Source: an uncultured Eubacteriales bacterium
Lineage (GTDB): Bacteria > Bacillota > Clostridia > Lachnospirales > Lachnospiraceae
Direction: 5' to 3'
NCBI GenBank assembly: GCA_900314555.1
Contig: OMVQ01000003.1
Span: 1 to 64,000, forward strand
Length of the DNA: 64,000 nucleotides
Part shown: positions 1,604 to 62,859 of the stretch, piece by piece
How positions within the stretch are numbered: the first letter of the stretch is position 1
How the letters are laid out: every line of letters starts with the position of its first letter
Translations under genes and position numbers: made by a program
Notes under the pieces: generated by a model
Told to the model about the DNA's origin: nothing
Seen by the model: only the letters and a program-made list of their open reading frames with translations
Databases searched by the model: none

Positions 1604-1765
1604 ATGGAGAATAGCATAAGAATGTTCTATCAGGCATTGGCTGTTATATTGTTTGTAATTGCATTAAGTATACTTTTTAATATTGACAGGCTTATGGAGA
1701 AAGAATACAGATATATTCAGTATTCTGATAGATATAGAGAGGTTAGAATAAGGCTTAAAGATTAG
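1604..1765 (+). CDS. 53-residue single-helix membrane protein
   Basis: Short gene: ATG at 1604, TAG at 1763-1765, 53 codons. The product has a polar start (MENSIRMFYQ), one hydrophobic helix at about residues 11-27, and a highly charged, tyrosine- and arginine-rich tail. It follows the previous stop by two bases and shares its first four residues with that gene, which suggests translational coupling. Its size and helix-then-charged-tail form resemble small Flp/TadE-like subunits, but no family motif is visible. The stop codon runs directly into the structured element at 1765-1882. Confidence 0.5.
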   Translation: MENSIRMFYQALAVILFVIALSILFNIDRLMEKEYRYIQYSDRYREVRIRLKD

Positions 1766-1882
1766 TGTGAAAAATAATAAAAATAATGTAAAAGCGTTTA
1801 TTTATACAAAGTTATTTGTTGCTGAGTAAAAACAAATAGTTCTTATAACAGATGATAAATTCGTCTATGCGAATTTATCATC
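1765..1882 (+). repeat. Multi-hairpin intergenic element, copy A
   Basis: Structured element related to those at 32043-32143 and 35476-35615. It begins GTGTGAAAAAT (as does the copy at 35476). It then has hairpin H1 (arms 1811-1820 and 1831-1840, loop containing CTGAG) and hairpin H2 (perfect 13-bp stem, arms 1851-1863 and 1870-1882, six-base loop TCTATG). It is followed within about 40 bases by the ribosome site and start of the next gene. H1 matches copy B at about 22 of 28 positions by hand alignment. H2 has a different stem sequence but keeps pairing and a similar loop. Confidence 0.65.
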
Positions 1883-1919
1883 AACTCTTTAGGATGGGCC
1901 ATTAAGAATGGAGATTAGT

Positions 1920-2402
1920 ATGGAGGAGATTTATTCAAAAGTTGTAGCTATTATTATAGGCTGTATAGCATTATTTATTGTTCCGGTAAAGATATTGTCA
2001 TGGAGACAGGATAATATGCAGCAGACATACATTTTAACAGAGACAATATGTTTTGTTGACAGTGTATGCAATAAGGGAATCTTATATAGTGATTTATATA
2101 TAGATTATCTCAATAAAATTCAAAAGTCAGATAAGATTTATAAAGTTAAGTTAGAACATATAAAGAATTCTGAGAATAGCATTGAAAAGTCCAATAATAG
2201 TTCTGAAAAATTAGATAGTGGAGTGGGTGATATAGATAATCAATTAACTGATATTGATTATACAGAGCAGATATTAGAAGAACTTAAGACAGATGGAAGT
2301 CATAAATTCTTAGAAAATGATATATTCAGAATTGAAGTAGTTGATAATAATGATAATGTGGTAGTGTTTTATGGAGGGTGTATAAAAGATGAAGATTACT
2401 GA
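1920..2402 (+). CDS. Anchored pilus-locus protein (hypothetical)
   Basis: Unrecognised 160-residue protein with an N-terminal signal anchor at about residues 4-24 and a polar, mostly charged extracellular part; an Asn/Ser/Asp-rich stretch lies near the middle. I prefer the ATG at 1920 over the in-frame ATG at 1908. GGAG at 1911-1914 then sits six bases upstream, and the context matches the ribosome sites that end the related elements before argC and argD. Its last codons overlap the next gene by 14 bases, so the two are probably co-translated. Context suggests a minor pilin or TadE/F/G-like subunit; sequence alone does not prove it. Confidence 0.5.
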   Translation: MEEIYSKVVAIIIGCIALFIVPVKILSWRQDNMQQTYILTETICFVDSVCNKGILYSDLYIDYLNKIQKSDKIYKVKLEHIKNSENSIEKSNNSSEKLDSGVGDIDNQLTDIDYTEQILEELKTDGSHKFLENDIFRIEVVDNNDNVVVFYGGCIKDEDY

Positions 2403-31899: not shown

Positions 31900-32042
31900 T
31901 ATAAAAAGTTTCAATTTTTTGTTGCAAATATGAGAAATTGATTATATTATATGAATAAAGTGTCAAAAGTTAATTCATTATGTATGACATTATCGTGGCA
32001 GAAAGATTACATTTTGACAAATTATTCTTAATAAAAAAGTAT

Positions 32043-32143
32043 ACCAATTTGTTACAGAGCGAAGACAAATGGTAAGGAATGACAGATAGAAAATATTTGC
32101 AGGATATCTGCTTAAAACAAGGCGTTCAGAAAAGAGGATTAAT
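32043..32143 (+). repeat. Multi-hairpin leader element before argC, copy E
   Basis: Related to the elements at 1765 and 35476. H1 arms are ACCAATTTGT (32043-32052) and ACAAATGGT (32065-32073), with the shared loop text GAGCGAA; about 21 of 28 positions match copy B by hand alignment. A weaker second stem pairs CAGATA (32083-32088) with TATCTG (32105-32110). It ends with TTCAGAAAAGAGGATTAAT directly before the argC ATG, closely like the sequence before argD. Confidence 0.5.
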
Positions 32144-34550: not shown

Positions 34551-35456
34551 ATGGAAAAAGGAATGGAAAAATATTTAGAAAAAGCTAATGTTCTTATAGA
34601 GGCGTTGCCATACATACAGAGATTTAACAGAAAAATTATCGTTGTTAAATACGGTGGAAGCGCAATGGTAGATGAAGAATTAAAGAAGAATGTAATTAAA
34701 GATGTTACACTTCTTAAATTAGTTGGTTTCAAACCAATAATCGTACATGGCGGCGGTAAGGAAATCAGCAAATGGGTAGAGAAATCAGGAATGGAAGCAA
34801 AGTTCGTCAACGGACTCAGGGTAACTGATGCAAATACTATGGAAATTGCTGAAATGGTACTTGGAAGAGTCGGCAAATCACTTGTAACAATGGTTGAGGA
34901 ATTAGGCGTTAAAGCTGTAAGTATAAGTGGTAAAGATGGACAATTACTTAAATGTAAGAAGAAATTATCTAACGGAGAGGATATAGGCTTCGTTGGAGAT
35001 GTAACAGAGGTTAATCCGGGTGTATTATTTGATTTATTGGAAAATGATTATCTTCCAATCGTATGCCCTATCGGTCTTGATGATGAATTTAATTCATACA
35101 ACATAAATGCAGATGATGCAGCATGTGCAATTGCAAGAGCTGTTAATGCTGAAAAACTTGCATTTTTAACAGATATTGAAGGAGTATATAAAAATCCTGA
35201 TGATAAAGATACATTAATATCAGAGCTTCATGTTTCAGAAGCACGTAAATTAATCGAGGACGGTTATATAGGTGGTGGTATGTTACCAAAACTTAATAAC
35301 TGTATCGAAGCAATCGATAATGGTGTTTCAAGAGTGCATATCTTAGACGGAAGAATTCCACATTGCCTCTTACTTGAAATCTTTACTAATAAAGGTATTG
35401 GTACAGCAATTTTAGGAGATAACGAAGTTAGATTCTATAATGAAAAAAATGATTAG
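34551..35456 (+). CDS. argB: Acetylglutamate kinase
   Basis: Phosphorylates N-acetylglutamate. The 301-residue protein shows VVKYGGSAM near residue 28, the HGGGKEIS acetylglutamate loop, and the [13 protein letters not shown] and LTDIEGVY segments of the amino-acid-kinase fold. AAAGGA lies 11 bases upstream of the ATG; an ATG four codons later is also possible. It is the gene just before the structured element that separates it from argD. Confidence 0.94.
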
Positions 35457-35475
35457 AATTAAAGAAATGAAGATA

Positions 35476-35615
35476 GTGTGAAAAATCGAATCGATATGTC
35501 GATTTTTCACACAGCTATTTGCTTCTGAGCGAAAGCAAATAGCCTTTATGGCAAGTCAGAAATCGCCTATGCGAATTTCTGACTGCCTCTTCGCGAATAA
35601 ATCGCTCAGAAATGA
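35476..35615 (+). repeat. Multi-hairpin element between argB and argD, copy B
   Basis: Three successive hairpins. H0: perfect 14 bp (35476-35489 with 35499-35512). H1: 11 bp (35514-35524 with 35533-35543), loop with CTGAGCG. H2: AGTCAGAAAT-CGC (35554-35566) with 35571-35584, one bulge, loop CTAT. The element then runs through TCGCTCAGAAATGAGG, whose GAGG is the argD ribosome site. H1 stem bases differ from copy A in a paired way, so structure is conserved while sequence drifts. Confidence 0.7.
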
Positions 35616-35622
35616 GGATATT

Positions 35623-62464: not shown

Positions 62465-62491
62465 AGTCCATATATGATGCATATATGGGCT
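62465..62491 (+). terminator. Terminator after dnaJ
   Basis: AGTCCATATATG (62465-62476) pairs with CATATATGGGCT (62480-62491), 12 bp with one G-U pair and a three-base loop, followed by TTCTTGTGTT. Confidence 0.7.
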
Positions 62492-62540
62492 TTCTTGTGT
62501 TAAAAATATGGTTGTTTGTTTCATGTGAAAGTGGATAATA

Positions 62541-62580
62541 TTTATGGCAGATGAGAATTCGCTTGCGTGAATTCTTATCT
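62541..62580 (+). repeat. Partial copy C of the multi-hairpin element (H2 only)
   Basis: TTTATGGC then a 14-bp stem AGATGAGAATTCGC (62549-62562) with 62567-62580, two G-U pairs, loop TTGC. The lead-in TTTATGGCA also precedes H2 at 35554. A clear H1 is missing, so it is a fragment or distant relative. The rest of the 62426-62859 gap holds only the dnaJ terminator and a possible -10 (TATAAT at 62675-62680). Confidence 0.45.
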
Positions 62581-62859
62581 TTACAATAAATTAGCCGTAA
62601 ATACTTACAAATATGACTATATATGTGTTTGATTAAAATAAATGGTTTGCAATGGCTTTTTCTTTGTGTTAAAGTATAATAATGGCGAAAGAATCATTAA
62701 ATTTATGATTGAATTACGAAAAGTGATAAGATATACACATTTTCGAGCAGAAAATGTATGATAAATCTAAATAAATCTTTCAAGATATAAGTTTGGTGAT
62801 TACGAATAGAGGAAAAGAAAATACGAAAGGAATAGTCTGTTACAGACAGATAATCAGTT

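Follow-up and report, generated by a model that had tools for sequence, protein, structure and literature searches.

The window, that is, the whole 64,000-nt stretch analyzed here, carries four copies (A to D) of one folded repeat, all in the same orientation (Table 1). An earlier note had described three leader sites with a common hairpin H1 (stem TATTTG with CAAATA, GAG in the loop), in part followed by a hairpin H2 with a CTATG loop on a different stem. Both hairpins were present at 1811-1882 and within 35476-35618, while at the third site (32017-32138) H1 was present and H2 was worn. The whole window was scored with the covariance model R1, which had been trained on 32 copies from the same genome with A, B, and C left out. 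R1 returned these three leaders and copy D. The hairpin leaders are copies of one uncatalogued folded DNA repeat of roughly 140 bases. The match of copy B, recovered again with filters off, terminates in a AGAAAAGAGGA SD, followed by ATG 32144 of argC, which encodes an argC-type semialdehyde dehydrogenase (Pfam). Position 1765 is the exact left end of the element, GTGTGAAA, in copy A. The TAG stop codon of the preceding ORF ends on this same base (window 1760-1770), which means that the insertion either adjoins the 3′ end of that gene or has changed it.

Table 1. Copies of the repeat and adjoining features in the 64,000-nt window
Feature	Position	Strand	Evidence or remark
Copy A	1765..1914	+	R1 match 1774-1914, 62.0 bits, E 7e-17
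Parts of copy A	H0 (degraded) 1765-1808; H1 1811-1840; H2 1851-1882; then right end and SD		
Copy A, worn left flank repeat (AAGATTA)	1758..1764	+	sequence and family flank statistics
Copy A, right-hand SD repeat (AATGGAGATTAGT), before ATG 1920	1907..1919	+	sequence and spacing rule
Gene 3′ of copy A	1920..2402	+	pilus-like locus according to the earlier note; no Pfam match
Copy B, strongly worn	32017..32138	+	R1 21.5 bits, E 9e-5 for the window
Copy C, type I and intact	35476..35618	+	R1 159.9 bits, E 4e-46; fold z -7.9
Parts of copy C	H0 35476-35512; H1 from 35514, loop TCTGAGCGA; H2; right end TCGCTCAG		
Copy C, left flank repeat (AAATGAAGATA)	35465..35475	+	10/11 identical to 35610-35620
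Copy C, right-hand SD repeat (AAATGAGGATA)	35610..35620	+	2 nt 5′ of argD ATG 35623
Copy D, worn, SD and start codon gone	62474..62603	+	R1 31.3 bits, E 1e-7; previously unreported

Across the genome of the window, at least 143 R1 matches were found (150 candidates scored). Using copy C as a DNA query against this genome retrieved at least about 40 dispersed copies with 79-92% identity. Copy C folded far better than shuffled sequences (z -7.9), and copies A and B modestly better (z -2.3 and -2.1, respectively). Chance hairpins or independently evolved leaders could have been suspected from copies A and B, which are AT-rich and worn. The E-values of R1 and the more than 140 copies refute this explanation, leaving it a negligible probability. 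The closest pair of copies in the genome was 96% identical; with no near-identical pair among them, the copies give no sign of recent movement there.

The element was also searched for in other genomes. One congener carried 25 copies and three others carried 1-3. In a sample of the window's own family, 35 of 299 genomes carried the element, and in a class-wide sample 3 of 391 genomes were positive, all three within the window's own family. Named carriers include Eisenbergiella, Acetatifactor, and unclassified Lachnospiraceae. The element is so far confined to one bacterial family, Lachnospiraceae judging by these named carriers. The exact H1 pattern was not found in viral contigs. Searching Rfam at gathering and relaxed thresholds gave chance-level matches only, with no riboswitch or other known family. 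Among open-licence papers, a weak basis for a negative result, no report of SD-targeting repeats or of Lachnospiraceae repeats of this type was found.

Aligned copies have a common layout: an SD-bearing left flank, H0, H1, H2 (H3), the right end, a second SD, about 5 nt, and the start codon. H0 (GTGTGAAA..TTTCACAC), which is degraded in copies A and B, starts roughly where a start codon would otherwise be expected. Two subfamilies in the genome of the window have H0 in common and differ in the H1 loop and the right end. Type I has the loop TCNGAGCGA and the right end TCGCTCAG, and type II has the loop CGCAGACG or CGCAGGCA and the right end CGTCTGCGG or TGCCTGCGG. Variants in other genera include CCGGAGCG with CGCTCCGG and CCGAAGCG with CGCTTCGG. 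A candidate decoy ORF at the left end, the start-stop GTGTGA, was dropped since it is not kept in other genera.

The last approximately 9 bases of the element pair with the H1 loop, forming a pseudoknot. Covariation was evaluated with 40 copies, mostly from other genera. Over H0, H1, H2, and the pairing of loop and right end, 94.2% of pairs were standard and 28 of 42 pairs had changed on both sides. None of 500 shuffles was as good, and slid versions of the fold reached 32-49%. The pseudoknot alone was 95.6% paired, compared to 20-39% for slid versions, and both partners had changed in 6 of its 9 pairs. Reshuffling loops and right ends among 153 copies lowered their complementarity from 7.06 to a mean of 4.89 (0 of 10,000 shuffles as high). 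H3, a local alternative for these 3′ bases, covaries as well (91%), although it is weaker by pair-type count. The tail of the element thus has two mutually exclusive conserved partners, the H1 loop or the H3 strand. The conserved pairing with the H1 loop suggests that the tail pairing most likely defines the right end of the element. The expectation that a covariance model would reveal further copies and covariation was borne out strongly on both counts. The idea of a repeat that spreads and is retained for its fold has gained support from the copies in this genome, the covariation, and the occurrence in other genera. New relative to that description are H0, the pairing of loop and right end, the direct repeat with the SD on either side, and the more than 140 additional copies.

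Of 122 non-tandem copies, 108 were located in sense orientation directly 5′ of an ORF start (ORFs of at least 60 codons, or 40 where the ORF leaves the fetched stretch). The distance from the model end to the start codon was exactly 5 nt in 65 of these 108 copies and 4 nt in 15. On the other side, a same-strand ORF ended no more than 400 nt upstream of 98 of 130 copies, many within 50 nt. The ORF positions on both sides suggest that the element inserts on the sense strand, a few bases 5′ of start codons, and mostly within operons. The near-fixed spacing between SD and start across the family also supports the proposed start of the gene 3′ of copy A. The spacing of GGAGATTAGT to ATG 1920 fits the family, and the alternative ATG 1908 falls within the copy of the SD.

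The left and right flanks match copy by copy over approximately 8-12 bases, SD included. The longest match between them was 8.85 for type I (6.17 when shuffled) and 9.30 for type II (7.06 when shuffled), with 0 of 10,000 shuffles as high in each case. In 48 of 129 copies, the SD was spanned by an in-register repeat of 10 bp or more, compared to 9.8 copies by shuffling; the longest was 18 bp. The excess identity did not extend beyond approximately -1 to +12 relative to the SD. Rare variants occurred on both flanks of single copies, for example TGCAGATTGGAGAATAGT at C67:1542 and AGAATAGAGGAT at C18:18886, which indicates more than a shared SD consensus. The target site duplication expected of a MITE appears in these flank statistics with variable length; a fixed-length duplication is thus not demonstrated. 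An SD-core base was unequal between the flanks in 56 of 129 copies, a count that takes in register misses, tandem copies, and old copies. Such loss of the match in many copies would be expected if selection keeps the downstream SD only. In an independent sample of named genomes, the flank match was weak (z 2.5, 87 of 10,000 shuffles). One copy in front of a lumazine-binding-domain gene (L140, C97:25647-25786) has a right end that mismatches its own H1 loop and instead repeats 21 bp of the left flank; either a hybrid origin or a longer duplication may explain it.

Three genes were compared with their counterparts in congeners. The element was absent from the argB-argD interval of all eight congeners, and none was seen upstream of prmA in eight or upstream of cmk in seven. 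The neighbor gene upstream of prmA or cmk was the same one in nearly all congeners compared. The position of the element is therefore not conserved between orthologs at argD, prmA, or cmk. In congeners, the argB-argD gap was about 1-25 nt in five genomes and roughly 70-130 nt of unrelated sequence in three. In the window it is 166 nt, from the argB stop ending at 35456 to the argD ATG, of which about 12-22 nt remain once the element and one repeat are taken away. With ArgD identity of about 80%, the congeners are distant, and the exact pre-insertion sequence is inferred.

These empty sites bear on whether the element is a cis-regulatory RNA, the other option raised in the earlier note. Here, the tail would toggle between H3 and the H1-loop pseudoknot just 5′ of the SD, tuning ribosome access, and the element would have spread by some other route and been retained for regulation. 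Both tail pairings are conserved and covarying, copies are always sense and adjoin an SD, and their operon-internal placement makes transcription likely. However, neither pairing encloses the SD, and many copies are worn. The downstream genes have no common function: a survey of 30 genes, downstream of copies or in the window, included flagellin, IPP transferase, cytidylate kinase, PrmA, ZnuA, Rrf2, and a lumazine-binding protein, among others. With argD, prmA, and cmk also empty in congeners, we consider this explanation unlikely. The repeat half of the earlier proposal was supported, and its RNA half was weakened by the unrelated genes and the congeners lacking the element at these three positions. 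Regulation by the element, as judged from its sequence, is possible and could be a by-product of mobility.

The best reading, and in our judgment the probable one, is a non-autonomous mobile element of approximately 130-150 bp that inserts at SDs and duplicates the SD. Insertion would copy about 8-12 bp containing the SD, leaving one SD on the left and placing the other on the right beside the start codon. As an SD copy is retained, the invaded gene would still be translated. The mobilizing enzyme most likely recognizes a folded single strand of DNA or RNA; this enzyme would act in trans and may have been lost. More tentatively, we propose that a folded strand with a two-state 3′ end enters specifically at translation initiation regions, restoring the ribosome-binding site with every insertion, through a kind of enzyme new to small repeats; this is a possibility that we hold with some doubt.

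Tandem copies offer a view of how the element might enter. Just past the window, a type I and a type II element stand in tandem before prmA with one SD between them (L007, C58:64999-65280). Seven further tandem pairs were found in the genome, mostly with type I upstream, and the H0 of tandem partners were more alike than those of random pairs (p 0.0002). A sub-variant of the mobile reading would explain the flank similarity and such arrays without a staggered-cut target duplication, by a circle with SD-like sequence that enters by homologous or site-specific recombination at an SD, similar to tandem att-site insertions, with arrays forming by the same circle route. The single shared SD junction and the similar H0 in tandem arrays keep this route open. 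The prevalent order of type I before type II also agrees with it, as do left flanks that at times extend into right-end-like sequence (e.g., TGCGG). On the other hand, locus-specific rare variants on both flanks are what duplication predicts, as is the confinement of the excess identity to the SD region. An obligatory recombination overlap would, however, look alike. We regard the circle route as rather improbable.

The enzyme that would mobilize the element was searched for in several ways. All 45 exact H0 sites in the genome of the window fall in known copies, giving neither an autonomous copy nor a parent IS with the same ends there. A coding insert was sought through the right-end distance at 120 named loci and none was found, as nearly all right ends were within 140 bp. 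There were no terminal inverted repeats: the left end GTGTGAAA and the right ends GCTCAG, CTGCGG, or CTCCGG are not inverted copies. The Y1 transposase PF01797 was absent from the genome of the window and was rarer among carriers, occurring in 11 of the 35 genomes with the element and in 153 of the 264 without it. The IS110 DEDD transposase PF01548 was absent from this genome and from 10 of 16 element-rich genomes. The H1 loop was also considered as a target guide, but its pairing with the left flank (3.66) showed no excess over shuffled pairs (3.74); by that test the fold is no target guide. A SINE-like route, in which the folded RNA would be reverse transcribed at nicked SDs with target priming and variable-length duplications, would agree with the varying repeat length, the conserved fold, and the missing H0 end in some copies. 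We consider it very unlikely overall. RVT_1 was missing from 8 of 16 element-rich genomes and was represented by a single gene in the genome of the window.

Among known systems, YPAL and the BCR repeats appear closest to the element in kind, as judged from their descriptions. YPAL (RU-2) of Yersinia is about 168 bp, with internal inverted repeats, no TA termini, and target duplications of 3-26 bp (PMC2229807). It resembles the element, in kind only, by its lack of terminal inverted repeats and its variable-length duplications. However, YPAL belongs to another host group and targets sites at or beside dyad symmetry rather than ribosome-binding sites, and a loop-to-end pseudoknot is not described for it in that review (PMC2229807). 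The BCR repeats bcr1-bcr18 of the Bacillus cereus group are 100-400 bp, with up to 130 copies of bcr1 per genome. They show mobile-element features, and their TTTAT motif repeats have been tied to a mechanism like site-specific recombination (PMC6542083). By description, they differ from the element in using the short TTTAT motif instead of the SD and in being limited to the B. cereus group (PMC6542083).

Other small repeats share fewer features with the element. ERIC, RUP, and Correia/NEMIS are small, non-autonomous, strongly base-paired, interspersed, and target-duplicating, and ERIC is co-transcribed with its neighbors (PMC2229807). These have terminal inverted repeats and 5′-TA-3′ ends (PMC2229807), whereas our element has no such repeats and duplicates the SD. 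REP sequences with their RAYT enzymes (IS200/IS605-related) are likewise hairpin DNA, high in copy number, and intergenic. REPs are 20-40 bp (PMC3733652), shorter than the element, and the genome of the window is without Y1 transposase. TAACTGA repeats of marine Beggiatoaceae are similar only in position, just 5′ of the start codons of unrelated genes (PMC4679880). They are tandem 7-mers, and the ORFs that follow them mostly lack an obvious SD (PMC4679880), in contrast to the duplicated SD of the element.

If the mobile reading is correct, this family would prefer ribosome-binding sites and spare the invaded gene through duplication of the site, a neat way of living inside operons. The 5′ leaders of more than 100 genes per genome would have been rewritten in common gut-type bacteria, and start-codon annotation would be shifted by the element. 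The covarying pseudoknot beside the SD would be a directly testable candidate for effects on translation, and the missing mobilizing enzyme would be a concrete search target.

The hairpins of the element appear modular. Copies in named Lachnospiraceae genomes (L249, L279, L281, and L324) have an extra or replaced hairpin of the AAACGAAG..CTTCGTTT type between H0 and H1. In the genome of the window, one copy (C35:13664-13794) has H0 swapped for an unrelated perfect hairpin, GGGTACAAATTGAAAC..GTTTCAATTTGTACCC.
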